Assembly (NCBI GenBank): GCA_026713485.1 | Contig: JAPOOK010000061.1 | Location: 1-59,616 of the forward strand | DNA: 59,616 bases | Reading direction: 5' to 3' | Source: Chloroflexota bacterium | GTDB lineage: Bacteria; Chloroflexota; Dehalococcoidia; UBA6926 | Shown here: positions 13,371 to 57,665 of the stretch, piece after piece | Numbering within the stretch: the stretch's first letter is position 1 | Layout of the letters: each line of letters begins with the position of its first letter | The notes under the pieces: model-generated | What the model was told of the DNA's origin: nothing | The model's input: only the letters and a program-made list of their open reading frames with translations | The model's database searches: none | Translations under genes and position numbers: made by a program

Positions 13371-13961
13371 CTAGTCACTCCCTTCACTGCCGCCCATTCC
13401 CGCGATGATTCGCTGGAGCGCGCTGACAGCAGAAAGCGCGGCGACCGCAACAACGGCGATGAGCGGCTGCGCAATGACCAAACCAATGGCCAGGATAGCA
13501 ACACGGACCGGACGCGGGGCGGGAATAAAGCCGCCGCGATTCAGTCCCAGACTCTCTGCGCGCGCTCTCGCATAGCTCACCAGCATTGAGAGAGCGAGCG
13601 CGGCAGTGGTCGCCACGACTGCGAGAACATCTTCTTCTCGCGCGAAGTGGAAGCTCAGGCCAATGAGGAGTGCCGCTTCCCCTACCCTGTCAAGCACAGA
13701 ATCCAGGAAAGCGCCAGTACGGGACACCGAATCCGTGTGGCGTGCAAGCGCGCCGTCCAAGCCATCCATCAGGCTTCCGGCGAGGAATACAAGGCCGGCG
13801 GGCAACAACTCGCCCTGACCGGCCAGGTACCCTGCGCCCACAGCGATAAGGGCGCCAAGGACAGTCAGATGGTTGGGACGAACACCGACCGCGGCAAGAA
13901 TACGAACGATGGGCGACCGTATGCTCTCAATGGCATTCGTGAAAACGGAGAGACGGCTCAC
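13371..13961 (-). CDS. CDP-alcohol phosphatidyltransferase (PI-phosphate synthase or PgsA-like)
   Basis: A 196-residue polytopic membrane enzyme with the full CDP-alcohol transferase signature: DGLDGALAR, eight residues, GAFLD, then SVLD, giving the Asp residues that bind two metals and the CDP group. It transfers a phosphatidyl group from CDP-diacylglycerol to an alcohol phosphate. The length and the N-terminus (IRSPIVRILAAVGVRPNHLTVLGAL) resemble actinobacterial phosphatidylinositol-phosphate synthase. Inositol-1-phosphate synthase is encoded at 30072, which supports inositol phosphate as acceptor, but phosphatidylglycerophosphate synthase remains possible. It starts at GTG and may share a transcript with the gene at 14016. 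Confidence 0.8.
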   Translation of the reverse strand: MSRLSVFTNAIESIRSPIVRILAAVGVRPNHLTVLGALIAVGAGYLAGQGELLPAGLVFLAGSLMDGLDGALARHTDSVSRTGAFLDSVLDRVGEAALLIGLSFHFAREEDVLAVVATTAALALSMLVSYARARAESLGLNRGGFIPAPRPVRVAILAIGLVIAQPLIAVVAVAALSAVSALQRIIAGMGGSEGSD

Positions 13962-29994: not shown

Positions 29995-30015
29995 CGCTCG
30001 CGGTGGGGGCGAGCG
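29995..30015 (+). promoter_or_regulatory. Hairpin in the ino1 upstream region
   Basis: CGCTCGC (29995-30001) and GCGAGCG (30009-30015) form a perfect 7-bp stem with loop GGTGGGG, 57 bases before the ino1 start. It lacks a T-run, so it is a possible leader structure or protein-binding site rather than a terminator. Confidence 0.3.
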
Positions 30016-30071
30016 CAATATCCCTGTCCCTGATTCGTATTGATTTCACGCATTGGACTGGAGGTTTTTTT

Positions 30072-31205
30072 ATGGGAGACAAGATAAATGTAGCCATTGT
30101 GGGGGTCGGCAACTGCGCGTCCTCACTGGTTCAGGGCATCGAATACTATCAGAATGCCTCGGACAACGATGCGATCCCGGGTCTGATGCATCCGCGACTC
30201 GGCCCGTATCACATTTCGGACATCAATTTTGTTGCGGCGTTCGATGTTGGCTCAACGAAGGTGGGCAAGGATCTCTCCGAAGCGATCTTTGAGGAGCCGA
30301 ACAATACATATAAGTTCACGGACGTCCCGAGAACAGGAGTCACCGTCGAGCGCGGCATGACGCACGACGGACTTGGCGAGTTTCTCTCGCAGAAGATCGA
30401 GAAGGCCGAAGGGAAGACGGCGGACATCGCCAACATTCTCAAGGAGCGTGAGGTAGATGTCCTCATCAGCTACCTGCCGGTTGGCAGTGAGATGGCCACG
30501 AAGTGGTATGTGGAGCAGGCGCTTGCGGCCGGCACTGCCTTCATCAACTGTGTGCCGGTCTTCATCGCACGGGAACCCTACTGGCAGAAGAGATTCCGCG
30601 ACGCCGGAGTGCCGGTGATCGGCGATGACATCAAGTCACAGGTAGGATCCACCATCGTCCATCGCGTTCTGTCGCGGCTGTTCGGAGACCGCGCCGTGAA
30701 GCTGGAGAACACATACCAGCTGAATTTCGGCGGGAACACGGACTTCTACAACATGCTTGAGTATGAGCGTCTGGTGTCAAAGAAGGAGTCCAAGACCAAC
30801 TCCGTCCTATCTCAGCTTGATTTCGACCTTGATCCGGACAACATCCACGTCGGTCCGAGCGATTACGTGCCGTGGCTTCTGGATCGCAAGTGGGCGTACA
30901 TCCGGATGGAGGGACGCACATTTGGCGACGTGCCCCTGAACCTTGAGCTCAAGCTCGAGGTCTGGGACAGCCCGAACTCCGCCGGTGTGGTCATCGACGC
31001 CATTCGCTGCGCGAAGATTGCGTTGGACAGGGGAATCAGCGGCGCGCTCGTGCCGCCATCGTCCTACTTCATGAAGTCGCCTGCCGTGCAGATGCGGGAT
31101 GAGGAAGCACGGCGACGGCTTGAACAGTTCATCGCCAACGAGGGCGGCCCTGACGACACGCTCCCCCACATCGCGGTTTCGCGTGATCGGGAGGCGGTTC
31201 TCTAG
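30072..31205 (+). CDS. ino1: Inositol-1-phosphate synthase (actinobacterial/archaeal type)
   Basis: A 377-residue myo-inositol-1-phosphate synthase that makes inositol phosphate from glucose 6-phosphate in an NAD-dependent reaction. The NAD fold [18 protein letters not shown] starts at residue 5, and the family blocks [39 protein letters not shown] and [15 protein letters not shown] (active-site Lys) are all present. The short form, about 370 residues, is the one of actinobacteria and archaea. ATG 30072 follows TGGAGG. It gives inositol for phosphatidylinositol-type lipids, matching the phosphatidyltransferase at 13371 and the glycosyltransferase downstream. Confidence 0.93.
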
Positions 31206-47541: not shown

Positions 47542-48618
47542 ATGACAACCGCACGACTCGCGGAACTGGAGGATTCTCCACTATCGCCGTTCCCTGAGGG
47601 CTGGTATTTCATCGAAACTCGCCAGGCCATCGAGAAGGCCAAGCTGGTCAGCAGAACGTGGATGGGCGAGGAAATCATCGCCTGGATTGACGGCGAAGGG
47701 ACGATCTGCGTCGCAGAAGCGCACTGTCCACATTTGGGTGCGAACCTTGCGCCCGAAGTAGGCGGACGAGTCGTAGACGGGCAGCTGGTGTGCCCGTTTC
47801 ACGGCTTTGCGTATGATGCAACGGGACAATGCATCTCCACCCCATACACCAATCCTCCCCCAACGGCGCGGCTGCGCATGTTCCATATCGAAGAGCGCGT
47901 GGGCTTGATCTTCGGATGGTGGGGTATCGACAGGCGTCCACCTCAATGGCCGATGCCTGATGAACAGGAGGACACTCAAGGCTGGAGTTCCCTGGAACGC
48001 AAAAGCGTCAGATTCGCCGGACATCCGCAGGAGACGACAGAGAATTCAGTCGACTATTCCCACCTGAATTACGTACATGGTTTTGGGGACGTAAGCCGTA
48101 CCGCCCCGCTCGTGATTGAGGGCCATCGGCTGGAGAGCCGGTTCGATTTCCAGTCCAGAAAGCCAATCACACGATTTGCACATGTCACGTTTGATATTTC
48201 AGCGTCGACATTCGTTTATGGACTTGGAGTCTCGTATGTGGAGGTGCGGGAGCACTCGATCGGGATGGATCTGCGGTTGTGGGTGCTTGCAACACCGATT
48301 GATGGCACGAACGTGGAGGTGACGCTGTTCTCGCAAGTGAAGGAAATTACACACCCACGGCGCTTCCTGGTGGGTCTGGGTTTCCTGCCGAAAAAGTTCC
48401 GCGCACCCCTTATGAACAAGTTCATTGCGGCCTACCAGATCCAGGACGTCAAGAAGGACGTCATTATCTGGAATCGCAAGAAATACCGCTCACGACCGCG
48501 TCTTTTCAGGCTTGACGGGGACATCATGCCCTTTCGCAGGTATTGCGAACAGTTTTACCCTAGTACAAAGACAGCAGCAACCACACCCCCCAACACGGCA
48601 AGCGAGGCAACACAATAG
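47542..48618 (+). CDS. Rieske non-heme iron oxygenase
   Basis: A 358-residue Rieske oxygenase alpha-subunit type protein. The Rieske [2Fe-2S] ligands are Cys62-His64 (CPH) and Cys84-His87 (CPFH). The catalytic-domain motif NSVDYSHLNYVHGFGD supplies the bridging Asp and the two His of the mononuclear iron. It is of the stand-alone KshA/DAF36-like kind, many of which hydroxylate sterols, steroids or other bulky hydrophobic rings; the electron donor is not encoded beside it. The start is ATG 47542 after GGGAG. It is followed by an MMPL transporter. Substrate unknown, likely lipophilic. Confidence 0.85.
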   Translation: MTTARLAELEDSPLSPFPEGWYFIETRQAIEKAKLVSRTWMGEEIIAWIDGEGTICVAEAHCPHLGANLAPEVGGRVVDGQLVCPFHGFAYDATGQCISTPYTNPPPTARLRMFHIEERVGLIFGWWGIDRRPPQWPMPDEQEDTQGWSSLERKSVRFAGHPQETTENSVDYSHLNYVHGFGDVSRTAPLVIEGHRLESRFDFQSRKPITRFAHVTFDISASTFVYGLGVSYVEVREHSIGMDLRLWVLATPIDGTNVEVTLFSQVKEITHPRRFLVGLGFLPKKFRAPLMNKFIAAYQIQDVKKDVIIWNRKKYRSRPRLFRLDGDIMPFRRYCEQFYPSTKTAATTPPNTASEATQ

Positions 48619-48694: not shown

Positions 48695-51184
48695 ATGTAT
48701 ACGGCGCTAGGCAGTTTTAGTCGGCTTGTGACCGCGCGGCCATGGATAACCATCGCCCTGCTTCTCCTTGTGACGGTGGCGCTGGCCTACGGCGCGGGTT
48801 TCCGCGCACCGCCGACAGAAGGCGCCAGCCTCGCATTCCTCCCGCCGGATCACCCGCTCGTCCAGGCGTCGGAAGACGTCGAAGAGCATTTCGGAGACTC
48901 GGGTGAAGTTCTTGCCGGCACACTAATCTTCCGTGGCGAGACGCTCACACCCGACAGCCTGGCCCAAATGGACGCTCTTGCCAGCGACATCGCAAGCGAT
49001 CCACTCGTCCGTGACGTCCTGACTCCTACGGATTCGATAATCGTTCCGTCTTCATTTGTAAAAGCCGTCCTGCAAGTTGATGACCTTGGGGCAGTAACGC
49101 AAGCGCAGATTGATGCCGCCCGCGACGTTCCCGGGATCGGGGAGGCTCTCTCCGCGATGACCGGAGTGGATAGGGATGGCACGGAGATTGCCATCGGGAA
49201 TATTCGGCTCATCAACACGGCGGACGACAGCGCCTCCATAGCCGAATTTCGGATAGACGAACTGGCAAATGAGTCGGAAGGTCCATTTGGTATTAGCTTC
49301 CTTTCACCGGCGATCATCCAGGAAGAGTATGAGAAGGCAACGGAAGAAGGGATGGCGCCGCTAATCCTCCTGGCGTTGGTGCTTATCCCGGCACTGATCT
49401 TTGTCTTTACCCGCTCAATAGCAGACACGTTCCTGTCACTGACGGGGCTTGTCCTGTCCATCACATGGGTCGTGGGCGCGGAGGGATGGCTTGGGCCTGA
49501 ATCGCCACTACCGGAAGCACTGCGGATCATTGGCCCGCCCAGCTCGCTTACTACTCTTATCCCCGTCATCATCATCAGCCTCACCGTGGACTATGCCCTG
49601 CAGACAATCTCGCATTACAGGGAGCAGCGCCTCGAGGGATTGCCGGTTCGCGAGGCTGTCCGGGCCGGTATGCGGAATGTGACGATTCCCCTCACGCTGG
49701 CCGCGGTGACGACGATGGCGGGCATGTTGGCTTCGCTCTTCTCGCCAATTGCGGTGATCGGGGACTTTGGCGTCGTTGCCGCCTTGGGGGTCGGCTTGAG
49801 CCTGATCGTCATGCTGACCTTGATTCCGGCTGGACGAACAATCATCGACCGGCGCCGCGAATCACGAGGCAGCTTGCCACCGACGCGCGCAATATCGAAC
49901 GCGGTACCGGGCGTATCACGGATAGCGGAAATTCTGGGCAGGGAAGTTACCCGGCGGCCCGCTCCGTATATCGTCGGCGTCCTTGCCGTAACGGTCGTGA
50001 TGGGGTACTTCGCGACAGGACTGAAATCGGAATTCAGCATACGGGACGTCCTGCCTAATGACGGCTCAGTTCTTGAGAACCTTGAGACCCTCGACGCGGC
50101 AGTCGGCGGCTCGACAGAGTTGGCCAGTCTACTAGTGACGGCGGAGATAACGGACAGTCGTACGCTCCTGAATCTTCATGATCTGACAAACCCGTTCGAC
50201 GATGAACGTACACGCCCATCGTCAGCGGCGGAACCTGTACAGAAATCGTTTGAAGACATCGTGCATGATTGGACTAACGACAGCGGTGAACCAGACGACA
50301 AGTACGACGCGGAGTTGGCGGCGCTCTTTGAGCGAGCATCCCCCGGCGTAGAACTTGATCCTGTGCTAATGCAGGAGTTCGTTGATGAACTGCTGATCAG
50401 GGAACCTGAGCTCTCGCAATTCATCGTCAACAATCCTGACGGGATGGATCTGTTGCTGCTCCAATTCCTGGTGTTCAATGAAGACCAACCGCGATTGGGC
50501 AGGCTCCAGGGGGAACTTGAGGAACTCTGGCTCGGCGAAGACGACAATATCATTGTGACGTCCCTGGCCATCGTTTCAGTGGCGGTCGGTGATCAGATAA
50601 CAAGTCGCCAGACGGAGGCGATCGGTACGACCGCTGCGGTGGCAGTGACCATCCTGGCGATCTTCTTCTGGCTCACACTGCGCCAGCCTGCGCTTGCAGT
50701 CATCGCGGTGGGGCCGATCGTGCTGGTTCTTATCTGCGTGCTGGGCACAATGAGGCTGCTGGATATCCCCTACTCGCTCATCACATCCATCATCACTGCG
50801 TTATCAATCGGTATTGGCGTGGATTACACGATCCACATCATTCACCGCTATCGCGAGGAGTATTCCCACCTGCGCAACCCGGAACAGGCAGCGATTCGCA
50901 CCTTGTCGACAACAGGTTCAGCGCTATTGGGTTCCGCGATGACCACCGGCATGGGATTCGGTGTGCTGATAGCCGCGCCACTTACTGCGTCACAGCAGTT
51001 TGGCATTACTGCGACGATCACAATTGTCTATTCGCTGATCGTATCGGTTCTGCTGGTGCTGCCGGCAATGGTGGTCTGGGGCGCCTATCAGAACGTGCGG
51101 CTTCGATCAACGGCGCAGCGATGGGCGGAGGAACTGGATCTGGAAATCGATGCGGTGCATCGACGCCACGAAGCCGAGGCCTAG
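48695..51184 (+). CDS. MMPL/RND-superfamily transporter (HAE3-type)
   Basis: An 829-residue RND-superfamily membrane protein with two homologous halves. Each has one N-terminal span, a large outside domain and a five-span bundle (LLALVLIPALIFVF to LIVMLTLIPAG; TTAAVAVTILAIFFWLTL to VLLVLPAMVVWG). The halves share ITALSIGIGVDYTIHIIHRYRE and SLTVDYALQTISHYRE, the usual proton-relay region. The N-terminal PPTEGASLAFLPPDHPLVQ is typical of HAE3/MMPL proteins, which export lipids and hopanoids. GGGGAGGGGG precedes the start. Its stop shares a CTAG with the P450 gene on the other strand. Confidence 0.85.
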   Translation: MYTALGSFSRLVTARPWITIALLLLVTVALAYGAGFRAPPTEGASLAFLPPDHPLVQASEDVEEHFGDSGEVLAGTLIFRGETLTPDSLAQMDALASDIASDPLVRDVLTPTDSIIVPSSFVKAVLQVDDLGAVTQAQIDAARDVPGIGEALSAMTGVDRDGTEIAIGNIRLINTADDSASIAEFRIDELANESEGPFGISFLSPAIIQEEYEKATEEGMAPLILLALVLIPALIFVFTRSIADTFLSLTGLVLSITWVVGAEGWLGPESPLPEALRIIGPPSSLTTLIPVIIISLTVDYALQTISHYREQRLEGLPVREAVRAGMRNVTIPLTLAAVTTMAGMLASLFSPIAVIGDFGVVAALGVGLSLIVMLTLIPAGRTIIDRRRESRGSLPPTRAISNAVPGVSRIAEILGREVTRRPAPYIVGVLAVTVVMGYFATGLKSEFSIRDVLPNDGSVLENLETLDAAVGGSTELASLLVTAEITDSRTLLNLHDLTNPFDDERTRPSSAAEPVQKSFEDIVHDWTNDSGEPDDKYDAELAALFERASPGVELDPVLMQEFVDELLIREPELSQFIVNNPDGMDLLLLQFLVFNEDQPRLGRLQGELEELWLGEDDNIIVTSLAIVSVAVGDQITSRQTEAIGTTAAVAVTILAIFFWLTLRQPALAVIAVGPIVLVLICVLGTMRLLDIPYSLITSIITALSIGIGVDYTIHIIHRYREEYSHLRNPEQAAIRTLSTTGSALLGSAMTTGMGFGVLIAAPLTASQQFGITATITIVYSLIVSVLLVLPAMVVWGAYQNVRLRSTAQRWAEELDLEIDAVHRRHEAEA

Positions 51185-53205
51185 AGTTCGCGTCTCTCAG
51201 TCACCACAAGCTTGACCTTTTTGTGCGGTCTCAGTGACGGAAGCGCGGTGATCTTGAGGTTGTCCTTGAACTTCGCCGGGGAGACGTCAAAGGTGAAGTG
51301 GCGGGCAATCATGAGCAAGTTGACGGTGAGCTGCAACTCCATCTGGCGATTGCCGAGGCAGGTGTGTGTGCCCAGGCCAAAGGGGGCATAGCCGGGACTG
51401 TGGTGCTCATTGCGGGGCGCCTGGTAACGGTCGATATCGAATGTGTCGGCGTCCGGGAAGACATCGTCCATGTAATGCGCGGCGGTCTGCGCGATATGCA
51501 CCCGCGTTCCGATTGGCAGTTCAAATCCCTCAACAACACAGGTGTTCATCACGTTGCGAACAGACATGGGAACGATGGGATAGAGCCGCATGCATTCCAT
51601 GATGAATCGATGAGTGATGTCGACGGATTCCAGGGTGATGTCGTCTCCCTTGGGGTCACCATTCGCGAACAGCGCATCAGCCTCGCGCCGAACCTCGGCA
51701 TGGAGTTCCGGCTTAGCCGCCATGGCGTAGAGGCAGAAGCTCATCATATCGCCGAGATAAACGCTGGCAACCAGTGCCACGGTAAAAGCGAAGCGCAGAT
51801 TGGATTCCGGTATAAACTGCGGGTCGCTCGCATGGAGGCTGAGGTAGTCATCGACGAGGTCACGAGGTTGTCCCGCTCGTTGCGCCGGCGTATGCACACC
51901 CTGCACTCGCTCCAACAGCCGATCAACGAGTTTCGCTCGTCGTCTCATGCCCGGCGTCTTCAGCATAAACTTGGGCAAGACATTCATGACGTGAACGCTG
52001 AGTACCCTTTCCTTGTACGTGGCGAGATCACCAATGAGGTCCTGCGAATCGACGCCGACGAAGAACGGAGAGACTTGGGCGTTGATCATCATCCGGGACG
52101 TATTGCTTGCGGGAAGAGCGTCTCCCACCTTCCAGTTCGACATGAACGCCCGGGCATTGTCATAGACCATGTCCAATTGACCTTCAAGTCGAGTGCGGGA
52201 ATATGCGGGCTGCAGGGATTTCCGCAGGCGGAAGTGATCCGCGCCATCCAGGGAGGGGAGCACGCCTGCCGCCCCGTATTCTTTCTCAAAGTTATGGAAG
52301 TAGTCCCTGGCCCGCAGGTACATGCGCCCCTGCCGATGCGCCCACCTGTTTGTGGCGGATCCGGCCAGGAACACGAGGGGCTTCATGAATGGGGGCTTGA
52401 TCTGAAACACGGGGCCGTATGTCTCGGCCAGCGCGCCGAACAGCGCCGGAATGTTCCCGCTTCTCAGATGCTTGTTGAATAACAGCTTTCTCAGGGAAAC
52501 GGTCGGGATCTTCTTGGCCAGTCCTGACCGGCGCAGCAGAGGTCCGGCAAGGTTCTGAGAAACGGCCTCCGCTATGGATCGGCCGATGACGTCCATCCTG
52601 GAGATCTGTGTTATCCGCTCTTCCTCCTCTTCTTCGATGGGGAAGATGAAGCGAAACACGTCACACGTATTGACCAGGCAGATGAGAATGATATCTCTCG
52701 GCTCAGGAATCTCATCGCTGAAAATGACCCTGATGATTCGGTTCCTGACGAATTCAGCTGCCGTGTCCCTCCATTCGCCGCCGCCAAATTCGACGCCGCG
52801 CGATGTGCGGGCCATCGTCCAGAAATCGCCGTCATGGTGTTGAAGGATGCCAATCCTGACCAGACGGGCAAGGGTATCGTCGATGATGGTTTCTGCAAGC
52901 GGCGCGAGGCGTTCAATCCAGTATCTGGTGCTTCGCTGCTCAGATTCGGAGGCAATTTCGTCAAGAATGGTATCTAGCGCAATGTCATCCGTATCCGTCT
53001 TGTCGACGAGGATGAGCGACTCAAGGTCAGTATCAATGCGGCCCAAGAGAGACAGTTCCGCAATGGCCGCGCCAACGACAACACAGTTGAGGTTCCAGCC
53101 GGGCACCTGGTGGAAGTAGCCGTCCTCCTCATTGAGGAGGATCAGGATGAGTTCTTCCGGCAGGCTGAGAGTCTGTGTCTCCGCTCCGTCAGCAGCAACC
53201 GTCAT
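51181..53205 (-). CDS. GPP34 (GOLPH3)-cytochrome P450 fusion protein
   Basis: A 674-residue fusion. Residues about 12-210 form a GPP34 domain (SLPEELILILLNEEDGYFH, then WNLNCVVVGAAIAELSLLGRI, and LARLVRIGILQHHDG), the family of the eukaryotic Golgi phosphoinositide-binding protein GOLPH3/Vps74. By eye the Trp of the PI4P pocket is kept (PGWN), while a following Arg of GOLPH3 seems to be Ala. Residues about 255-670 are a P450: ExxR in MECMRLYP (Glu about 536), FDIDRYQAPRN, and the heme loop FGLGTHTCLG (Cys near 615). No membrane span is present. The start is ATG 53205 with CGGAG upstream. The FAD oxidoreductase gene lies 89 bases upstream. A membrane-tethered oxidase on a lipid or isoprenoid is inferred. 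Confidence 0.82.
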   Translation of the reverse strand: MTVAADGAETQTLSLPEELILILLNEEDGYFHQVPGWNLNCVVVGAAIAELSLLGRIDTDLESLILVDKTDTDDIALDTILDEIASESEQRSTRYWIERLAPLAETIIDDTLARLVRIGILQHHDGDFWTMARTSRGVEFGGGEWRDTAAEFVRNRIIRVIFSDEIPEPRDIILICLVNTCDVFRFIFPIEEEEEERITQISRMDVIGRSIAEAVSQNLAGPLLRRSGLAKKIPTVSLRKLLFNKHLRSGNIPALFGALAETYGPVFQIKPPFMKPLVFLAGSATNRWAHRQGRMYLRARDYFHNFEKEYGAAGVLPSLDGADHFRLRKSLQPAYSRTRLEGQLDMVYDNARAFMSNWKVGDALPASNTSRMMINAQVSPFFVGVDSQDLIGDLATYKERVLSVHVMNVLPKFMLKTPGMRRRAKLVDRLLERVQGVHTPAQRAGQPRDLVDDYLSLHASDPQFIPESNLRFAFTVALVASVYLGDMMSFCLYAMAAKPELHAEVRREADALFANGDPKGDDITLESVDITHRFIMECMRLYPIVPMSVRNVMNTCVVEGFELPIGTRVHIAQTAAHYMDDVFPDADTFDIDRYQAPRNEHHSPGYAPFGLGTHTCLGNRQMELQLTVNLLMIARHFTFDVSPAKFKDNLKITALPSLRPHKKVKLVVTERREL

Positions 53206-53294: not shown

Positions 53295-54698
53295 CTATAC
53301 GCTTTGAGCGCCGCGCCTGACCTTTCTGAATCGACGGCCGTACATGATGTTTCCGTAATAGTTGAACACCTGCCTCGCCTCTTCATCGTCGAAGGGATAG
53401 TCCGCGCCGAGCTGCCGCGCGGCAGCGAGCCCCGTGACAAAGCACGTTTCCTGGCTATTGACGAGTGTATGCGCGCCGCAGTGCCAGGTTCGTCTCTTGC
53501 CCTGGATGAAACGGAAAAGGCTCAAGAGCACGGCGATATGCCGCACGTCATGAATGATGTGCTGGAATGACAATCTCTTGACGATCTTTCCATCGTCAAT
53601 GGGGCTGACGGCGTTGTAGGTCACAAGGCAGGGTTTATCGGAGCCGGCCGCCCACGGCTGTTGGTTATGCATGATGTACGTGATCTGGTAGTTGTCCGGC
53701 CTGTCGCCGTACTGCTCGATGTAGTTGCTCCGCGTCTCCAGGGCCTTCATGTCATCGTCCGGCAGCACCGAGGAATCGGCGTGGACAACGGCGTCGCCGT
53801 GGAGCGAGGAATCGTAGCGGACAGACGAGAGGATGAACCGCTCAAGGCGCGTAGGTTCGTCGAGGATTGCCAGCGATTGATTCGCGTTGCAGGCGAGGAT
53901 GACATCATCGAACTCCTCACGGACGCCGTTCTCGTCCTCGATGACGACCCCGGCAGCCTGCCGATACACCTTTCGGACAGGACGATTCAGATAGATCTTG
54001 TCCCGGAACTCGAGGGACAGATTCTCGTAGATACGGCGGGTTCCCTGATCCCAGGTCTGCATGGTCGTCGCCCTCTCGATATCGAAGAACTCAAGGTATC
54101 GGGCGAAGAGAGACGCGGGCATGGCAAATACATCCGTCGCCATCAGGAAATTGACGAACATGGGCTTGAGGATCTTGTACTTGAAGTCATCGGAGAATCT
54201 GCCCAGCTTGAGCACCCGTCCCATGCTGATGTAGTTGTACGGGTTGAGGGCATTGAGGAGCCGGGAGCGGGAACGGGTCAACCGCCCAAAGCGGTGGAGA
54301 CGACGGAGCAGTCGTTGGAATTTCACTATATCGGACTGCAGTTCTCGCCGGAGATCGGAATCGAAGTCGTGCGCATAGATACCGTCTCCGTATTTCACGC
54401 TGTAACTGAAACGTGTTTCGAGCATATCTATGCCAAACCTCTGCATCAGGAGAAGCACATGCTGGTAAACGGACGGGATGAGGGCCGTGACGGAGATGTC
54501 AAACGGGACGGAGCTGCCGTCTTCCTGCGGCATATCGACTGTTACCGCATTGCCGCCAATCTGATCACGGGCTTCAAAGACTCGGAAATCAAACCTGTCC
54601 GTGTGATGGCTCAATCCCCACGCTGCGCCCAGGCCGGAGATGCCCGCCCCAACGATGGCGATGCGCCTTATCCCTGCCCTAGTCGCGCCGGATTCCAT
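53295..54698 (-). CDS. FAD-dependent oxidoreductase (amine-oxidase/desaturase-like fold)
   Basis: A 467-residue flavoprotein. The N-terminal FAD fold RRIAIVGAGISGLGAAWGL, the second motif VFEARDQIGGNAVTV and the central region YRQAAGVVIEDENGVREEFDDVILACNANQSLAILDEP (a GG-doublet protein) resemble the phytoene desaturase/amine oxidase class. The C-terminus (WHCGAHTLVNSQETCFVTGLAAARQLG) binds the isoalloxazine end. Members near fatty-acid or isoprenoid genes oxidise lipids. It precedes the GPP34-P450 gene on the same strand, so the two probably form an operon. Specific substrate unknown. Confidence 0.82.
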   Translation of the reverse strand: MESGATRAGIRRIAIVGAGISGLGAAWGLSHHTDRFDFRVFEARDQIGGNAVTVDMPQEDGSSVPFDISVTALIPSVYQHVLLLMQRFGIDMLETRFSYSVKYGDGIYAHDFDSDLRRELQSDIVKFQRLLRRLHRFGRLTRSRSRLLNALNPYNYISMGRVLKLGRFSDDFKYKILKPMFVNFLMATDVFAMPASLFARYLEFFDIERATTMQTWDQGTRRIYENLSLEFRDKIYLNRPVRKVYRQAAGVVIEDENGVREEFDDVILACNANQSLAILDEPTRLERFILSSVRYDSSLHGDAVVHADSSVLPDDDMKALETRSNYIEQYGDRPDNYQITYIMHNQQPWAAGSDKPCLVTYNAVSPIDDGKIVKRLSFQHIIHDVRHIAVLLSLFRFIQGKRRTWHCGAHTLVNSQETCFVTGLAAARQLGADYPFDDEEARQVFNYYGNIMYGRRFRKVRRGAQSV

Positions 54699-56543: not shown

Positions 56544-57665
56544 ATGAGCCAGTCAGACGTCGATCAGCGAATCCAGCAGTTGGTCTCGGAATTCAAGTTG
56601 CTGAGTCCATTCTTCGCGGGGTATCCAGTCAACCAGGACTTTGACTATTCATCGTTGTATCCATTGATGGCTTTCGCCGCCAACAATGTGGGCGATCCCT
56701 TCAGCTACTCACGCTATCAGGCAAACACACACGAGACTGAGCGTGAGGTCGTGCATATGGTCGCCGAGTTGATGAGACTGTCTCCGGACGACGCCTGGGG
56801 CAATGTCACTGCCGGCGGCACAGAGGGAAACATGTACGGCATCTATGTGGGGCGGGAGATGCTCAGAAACCCCATCGCCTACTTCTCACAGGACACCCAC
56901 TATTCCGTGCTGAAAATCCTGCACGTCCTGGGCATCCGCAACATCATGGTCCGCAGCCAGGAGAACGGCGAGATTGATTACGATGACCTGCGGGAGTCCA
57001 TGCGGATCCACAGGGACGCGCCGGCGCTCATTGTCGCTAACATCGGAACGACCATGAAAGGCGCGATCGACGATCTTGACAAGATCCGGGCAATCATCGA
57101 CGACCTGGCTTTGACCCGCACATATATCCACGCCGACGGCGCGTTTCACGGCATGATCCTCCCCTTCGTCGATGACCCCCAACCCTTTGGCTTTGACAGC
57201 GGGATCGATAGCATCGCCGTCTCAGGCCACAAGCTCATCGGCTCACCAATCCCATGCGGCGTTGTCGTGACAAGAAAGGAATACACCGCGCAAATCGGCC
57301 GAGCCATCGAGTATGTCGGCGCTCTGGACACAACATTGTTGGGCTCGCGCAACGCCATCACGCCCATGATTATCTGGTACGGGCTTAACAGGAACGGTCC
57401 GGACGGCATCAGGGAGATGGTGCGGCGGATGTTGGACAACGCGGAGTACGCGGTGCAGAAGTTCAACGACGCCGACATCCCCGCATGGCGCGGCGAGAAC
57501 AGCCCCATCGTCGTCTTCCCGCGTCCGTCGGACTATGTGCTGTTCATGTGGCAGCTCGCCCCCTACGGGGATATCGCCCATATCATCACGATGCCCCACG
57601 TCACCCGTGACATGATTGACAGAATCGTGCAGGACTGCCTGGAGTGGCCGGTGAAACAGGCGTAA
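56544..57665 (+). CDS. hdc: PLP-dependent histidine decarboxylase
   Basis: A 373-residue group II decarboxylase that closely follows the bacterial PLP-type histidine decarboxylase (Morganella type) in length and blocks. These are FAGYPVNQDFDYSSLYP, GDPFSYSRYQANTHETEREV, WGNVTAGGTEGNMYGIYVGRE, the SQDTHYSVLKI patch, VANIGTTMKGAIDDLDKIR, HADGAFHGMILPFVDD and the PLP-Lys230 in SGHKLIGSPIPCGVVV. It should convert histidine to histamine and CO2; other amino-acid specificities of related enzymes (such as MfnA) are less likely by these motifs. A gene for a double ACT protein starts 2 bases after the stop. Confidence 0.82.
   Translation: MSQSDVDQRIQQLVSEFKLLSPFFAGYPVNQDFDYSSLYPLMAFAANNVGDPFSYSRYQANTHETEREVVHMVAELMRLSPDDAWGNVTAGGTEGNMYGIYVGREMLRNPIAYFSQDTHYSVLKILHVLGIRNIMVRSQENGEIDYDDLRESMRIHRDAPALIVANIGTTMKGAIDDLDKIRAIIDDLALTRTYIHADGAFHGMILPFVDDPQPFGFDSGIDSIAVSGHKLIGSPIPCGVVVTRKEYTAQIGRAIEYVGALDTTLLGSRNAITPMIIWYGLNRNGPDGIREMVRRMLDNAEYAVQKFNDADIPAWRGENSPIVVFPRPSDYVLFMWQLAPYGDIAHIITMPHVTRDMIDRIVQDCLEWPVKQA

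Follow-up and report, generated by a model that had tools for sequence, protein, structure and literature searches.

The window analyzed in this work, viz. a whole stretch of 59,616 nucleotides of DNA from a Chloroflexota bacterium (contig JAPOOK010000061.1), encodes a protein in which a GPP34 (GOLPH3-type) domain is joined to a cytochrome P450, and this joining is genuine. As the same fused gene is present in sterol-modifying clusters of six phyla, the encoded protein is probably a membrane-held sterol-modifying enzyme. Judged from gene content, the conserved fused P450 appears to mark a sterol-modification cluster in symbionts, and the sterol context, which an earlier note on the sequence had not seen, is the best clue to its function. 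The explanation that we favour, and which we consider to be reasonably probable, is that the fusion is a P450 that modifies sterols (or sterol-derived lipids), with GPP34 as a membrane-surface adaptor, with partners encoded in its cluster, and with a substrate that is acquired. In the mechanism that we propose, the order of whose steps we infer, the N-terminal GPP34 domain would be a soluble adaptor that keeps the P450 close to its substrate on the surface of the membrane, and it would replace the transmembrane anchor that eukaryotic sterol P450s use. As partners the P450 would have the Rieske oxygenase with its KshA_C domain, the flavin oxidoreductase, an SMT (sterol C24-methyltransferase) and a reductase of the ERG4/ERG24 type. 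The sterol would be moved by the MMPL protein with its sterol-sensing domain, and in the organism of the window it would most likely be taken from the host or from another symbiont.

The open reading frame of the fusion runs from an ATG start to a stop codon with no internal stops, and it encodes one intact protein. The earlier note, made from the sequence, had described, without giving a strand, a GPP34 domain and a complete P450 with ExxR and FxxGxxxCxG motifs in this 674-residue protein. Both domains are confirmed by Pfam, where PF05719 matches with 106 bits (cut-off 29.1; positions 1-199 of the 201 in the profile) and PF00067 with 124 bits (cut-off 22.8), and the ExxR motif and heme-Cys loop that characterize the P450 superfamily are both present (Table 1). 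The NCBIfam models gave only weak P450 matches to the fusion protein, all far below their cut-offs. A predicted structure of the full-length protein (pLDDT 83.7, pTM 0.74) matches P450s. The possibility that the joined reading frame is an assembly error is rejected, since 31 independent loci carry the fusion in intact form and both halves are under purifying selection, with dN/dS of about 0.07 in each. In comparison with a relative of 91% identity, the values are 0.070 for GPP34, 0.030 for the linker and 0.077 for the P450, so that selection on the GPP34 domain and linker is as strong as that on the P450. No plasmid record spans 80% of the fusion protein, and scans for promoters and terminators gave results at the chance level.

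Table 1. Positions in the window of the fusion gene, its domains and motifs, and its conserved neighbours.
Feature	Coordinates	Strand	Basis or remark
GPP34-P450 fusion gene, 674 aa	51181..53205	-	ORF translation, Pfam, intact orthologues
GPP34 domain, residues 15-216	52558..53163	-	Pfam PF05719; AlphaFold2 and Foldseek
P450 domain, residues 249-660	51226..52461	-	Pfam PF00067; Foldseek
I-helix segment ASVYLGD (480-486), replacing (A/G)Gx(D/E)T(T/S)	51748..51768	-	Fusion alignment
ExxR motif E537-R540 (residues 537-540)	51586..51597	-	E and R invariant in 45/45
Heme-binding loop PFGLGTHTCLG (608-618), Cys616	51352..51384	-	Cys invariant in 45/45
Flavin-dependent oxidoreductase (amine-oxidase fold), upstream of fusion	53295..54698	-	PF01593; conserved neighbour
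MMPL/RND transporter with sterol-sensing/Patched match	48695..51184	+	PF03176, PF12349, PF02460; conserved neighbour
Rieske oxygenase with KshA_C domain	47542..48618	+	PF00355, PF19298; conserved neighbour

The 31 loci, which show 52-91% identity, were identified by scanning a single genome of each species, and they extend over six phyla, viz. Chloroflexota, Nitrospirota, Acidobacteriota, Actinomycetota (Acidimicrobiia), Gammaproteobacteria and Binatota, with the caveat for these loci and genomes that MAG contigs may be misbinned. The earlier note, which had proposed this search for the domain pair, knew of no described GPP34-P450 fusion; our literature search, confined to the main text of papers available without subscription, likewise found nothing relevant on GPP34 with P450, and in papers the term GPP34 mostly denotes an unrelated insecticidal protein. 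In a tree of the fusion proteins the grouping follows the phyla for the most part, but not strictly, and the branching of Nitrospirota, Binatota and Gammaproteobacteria among the Chloroflexota allows for transfer of the gene between phyla without proving it. Most fusion hosts appear to be sponge or coral symbionts, as judged from isolate names and general knowledge and not from sample records; names such as RHO, COS, IRC and APA fit a sponge MAG study (PMC8163846), and the bacterium of the window is probably sponge-associated. Distant GPP34-P450 paralogues (28-41% identity) are also present at L010:11438-13444 (-), L032:3261-5285 (+), L038:5284-7290 (+) and L039:1272-3314 (+). Those in L038 and L039 precede a gene of 393 aa, which in L038 encodes an acyltransferase (Acyl_transf_3), and sterol neighbours are absent; another distant fusion, at L040:5002-7035 in genome G252 (34% identity), is broken by an in-frame TAG.

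The genes near the fusion are in large part conserved. Of the 31 loci, 27 have the Rieske oxygenase nearby, 22 the flavin enzyme and 14 the MMPL protein, and an SMT is directly adjacent to the fusion in 13 of them as well as in six further Chloroflexota loci, four phyla in all. The one cluster SMT that was tested matches Sterol_MT_C above the cut-off, and at several Chloroflexota loci a tandem pair of ERG4/ERG24-type reductases lies within a few kilobases of the fusion. The nearest solved relative of the Rieske oxygenase is 3-ketosteroid 9alpha-hydroxylase, those of the flavin oxidoreductase are LkcE and 2b9w, and the KshA_C, sterol-sensing and Sterol_MT_C domains are all linked to steroids. 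The genes that define a bacterial sterol-modification cluster (viz. linked SMT, ERG24-type reductase and Rieske/KshA_C oxygenase) are found together in relatives; in the window itself, only the Rieske/KshA_C and MMPL genes of this kind are linked to the fusion, the latter being convergent with it and overlapping it by 4 bp, and the SMT and the ERG4/ERG24 protein are encoded elsewhere in the genome, on contigs C11 and C25, respectively. Two other genes were observed in these regions: an AcrB-type RND pump immediately upstream of the SMT/fusion cluster (L008:3689-6916, with equivalents in other Acidobacteriota loci and in L032), and, at 56544-57665 of the window, a histidine-decarboxylase-like PLP enzyme (NF002748, 444 bits, above the cut-off).

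The association with sterol genes is also seen at the level of genomes. Among 301 Chloroflexota genomes, from which all negatives were drawn, the close fusion is present in 23 and an SMT also in 23, with an overlap of 21; an SMT is accordingly found in 21/23 fusion genomes versus 2/278 others, and a full-length ERG4/ERG24 protein in 23/23 versus 1/278 (Fisher p values of 6e-28 and 1e-33, respectively, uncorrected for relatedness). The fusion and the SMT occupy the same 7 of 179 Chloroflexota genera, and within the genus of the window's organism genome G335 has both and G336 has neither. Of the 31 fusion genomes of the multi-phylum set, 29 have an SMT and 26 have ERG4/ERG24; no SMT was detected in the Chloroflexota fusion genomes G077 and G117, nor in G305 and G315 among the 31. 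This co-occurrence could in part be due to shared symbiont lifestyle and ancestry, as the hosts fall in seven genera and five families.

In regard to the source of the sterol, the only cyclase detected in the window's genome (91% complete) has the motif DIDDS and is of the hopene type, and in the same genome no lanosterol-type or oxidosqualene cyclase (DCTAE motif), as a de novo producer would have, was found. Since an SMT and a reductase are present and the sole cyclase found is hopene-type, the window's organism probably remodels acquired sterols. In some other fusion hosts (e.g. G218 and the Nitrospira bin75 locus), an oxidosqualene cyclase with the DCTAE motif is encoded, and in others, including four f42 fusion genomes and G042, no cyclase match was found; due to these differences, some hosts could produce their own sterols, and the remainder probably depend on acquired ones. 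At L004:13078-16740 (-) and L051:11167-14958 (+), one ORF each, of 1220 and 1263 aa, respectively, looks like a fusion of an FAD monooxygenase (squalene-epoxidase-like) with an oxidosqualene cyclase (DCTAE).

The identity of the N-terminal domain was examined by structure prediction, as the earlier note had advised. An AlphaFold2 model of residues 1-230, built from 31 aligned N-terminal regions (mean pLDDT 81.8, pTM 0.81), gave in Foldseek eight PDB matches with E<=0.001, all of them GOLPH3 or Vps74 (best TM 0.72/0.69; 9qpq and 3kn1 matched with probability 1.00), and the predicted fold is therefore that of GPP34. The domain resembles GOLPH3/Vps74 (PF05719) also in its profile match to human GOLPH3 (E 6.7e-11), but it differs from them in being fused to an enzyme, in having lost three PI4P arginines, and in belonging to a bacterial host without a Golgi. 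A bacterial GPP34 domain is likewise found in SCO4440 of Streptomyces, which has been connected with peptidoglycan and with wall-deficient cells; however, SCO4440 stands alone, without a P450 (PMC12402492). Most fusion genomes also encode a separate, stand-alone GPP34 protein that shares about 40% identity with the fused domain, and that in the window's genome (L036:8501-9154 (-), contig C17) lies beside an apparent iron/siderophore-type ABC transporter. W37 and the residues F128/W129 of a conserved hydrophobic hairpin (GDFWTM/L, residues 126-131) are kept in at least 41 of 45 aligned fusions. Due to their conservation, contact with the membrane by a route other than PI4P is possible, to which these residues would be suited. 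However, if the domain instead serves to join proteins, then it may be a docking or oligomerizing module that connects the P450 to the Rieske, flavin and methyltransferase enzymes rather than to lipid, by analogy with the recruitment of glycosyltransferases by GOLPH3. Binding of partner proteins is established for eukaryotic GOLPH3/Vps74, conservation of the cluster partners extends across phyla, and the strong selection on GPP34 and linker noted above is also in favour of such a role, which has in our judgment some chance of being correct but a smaller one than the adaptor role at the membrane.

The P450 half is closest in structure, based on Foldseek searches of the PDB with the full-length model, to CYP184A1, the Methylococcus CYP51-ferredoxin and P450 BM3. 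The Methylococcus capsulatus protein, like the present one, is a bacterial P450 fusion with a sterol context and a close P450 fold (TM 0.82; lanosterol-bound CYP51 is among the closest structures, at TM 0.82), but it carries a C-terminal ferredoxin in place of an N-terminal GPP34 and is a true CYP51. Membership of the fusion in CYP51 (sterol 14alpha-demethylase) was rejected, as the identity of its P450 is only about 20% with Methylococcus CYP51, and 23% with the P450 beside an oxidosqualene cyclase in L051, against the at least 40% expected; due to this low identity, the substrate is not readable from homology. The acid-alcohol pair (D/E-T) of classical monooxygenases is missing from the I-helix, where almost all 41 close members have A-S-[V/M]-Y-[L/V/M]-G-D, with Tyr plus Leu/Val/Met in place of the pair. 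The register, in which the acid is replaced by Tyr and the catalytic Thr by Leu/Val, is obtained by setting AGHYTGS of the L010 paralogue against AGHETT. As the pair is missing, an altered activation of oxygen is predicted, and the interpretation of the protein as an ordinary hydroxylase is weakened. If the enzyme is non-classical, then it may use peroxide or rearrange a pre-oxidized sterol (as an isomerase, dehydratase or peroxide-handling type), an explanation that is compatible with a sterol substrate and that we regard as possible but doubtful. The I-helix pattern is in agreement with it, as is the fact that no ferredoxin or reductase gene was seen in the window's cluster; however, the Thr is also missing from some true monooxygenases, electron partners may be encoded elsewhere, and the gap in the phmmer alignment falls at the I-helix segment.

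It may also be asked whether the substrate is a sterol at all. If the fusion were a gene of the symbiont lifestyle, with hopanoids or some other lipid as its substrate, then it would merely travel with the sterol genes. The hopene-type cyclase in the window's genome, the fact that the sequence similarity of the P450 half is not specific to sterol enzymes, and the nearness in fold of fatty-acid P450s (CYP184A1 with oleic acid, and BM3) are consistent with this. However, the SMT is immediately adjacent in four phyla, the co-occurrence with ERG4/ERG24 is near-perfect, and the f42 fusion genomes are without any cyclase match, and based on these results we consider a non-sterol substrate to be unlikely.

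The earlier note had suggested that GPP34 binds an inositol lipid (PI or PI4P) and thereby attaches a soluble P450 to membranes that contain this lipid, in a genome that seems to make inositol lipids. The window does carry genes for a myo-inositol-1-phosphate synthase (30003-31205) and, at 13371-13961, for a CDP-alcohol phosphatidyltransferase, and due to them inositol lipids are possible. In the profile alignment with human GOLPH3, R90, R171 and R174, which we take to be its basic PI4P ligands, are replaced by V44, E105 and I108, and W81 may be retained as W37; this alignment is remote (16-20% identity), and the equivalence of the PI4P pocket is to that extent uncertain. The pattern holds across the 45 fusions: at position 44 nothing but V/A/I/T occurs, at position 105 there is E/D in 43 of them, and at position 108 I/V/L in 41. 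Thus, of the residues of a GOLPH3-type PI4P effector, perhaps only the tryptophan is kept. Although the GPP34 fold, the two lipid genes and W37 are in its favour, the loss of three basic ligands, one of them reversed to Glu/Asp, makes anchoring through inositol lipid very improbable, and it was dropped as the leading idea.

The reading of the fusion as a sterol-modifying P450 relates to work on sponge symbionts of the same classes, in which clusters with SMT and ERG24-type genes have been reported, viz. ERG24-CYP51-ERG7 sterol clusters in Ircinia symbionts (PMC9531527) and bacterial SMTs that alkylate sterols in vitro, some to 24-isopropyl (PMC10070321). However, the fusion is not named there (a term search of the main texts found no GPP34 in PMC10070321 and no GOLPH3 in PMC9531527), and several of the Chloroflexota fusion hosts show a hopene-type cyclase or none. 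It is conceivable, although we would put the chances somewhat short of even, that the fusion belongs to an undescribed sterol-remodelling pathway of sponge and coral symbionts from six phyla, in which a non-canonical P450 is brought to host sterol by a PI4P-blind GOLPH3-like domain and, with SMTs, helps make unusual C24-alkylated or oxidized sterols that are now credited to sponges. The oldest biomarkers proposed for animals go back to unusual sterols, and it is debated whether these are made by sponges or by their bacteria (PMC10070321); the cross-phylum cluster, with the fused P450 as its marker and its link to SMT, provides a concrete set of enzymes that bears on this question. In addition, GPP34 gains a possible bacterial role, in which it is fused to a lipid-linked enzyme and the PI4P site is absent, and this bears on the function of the domain outside the Golgi.
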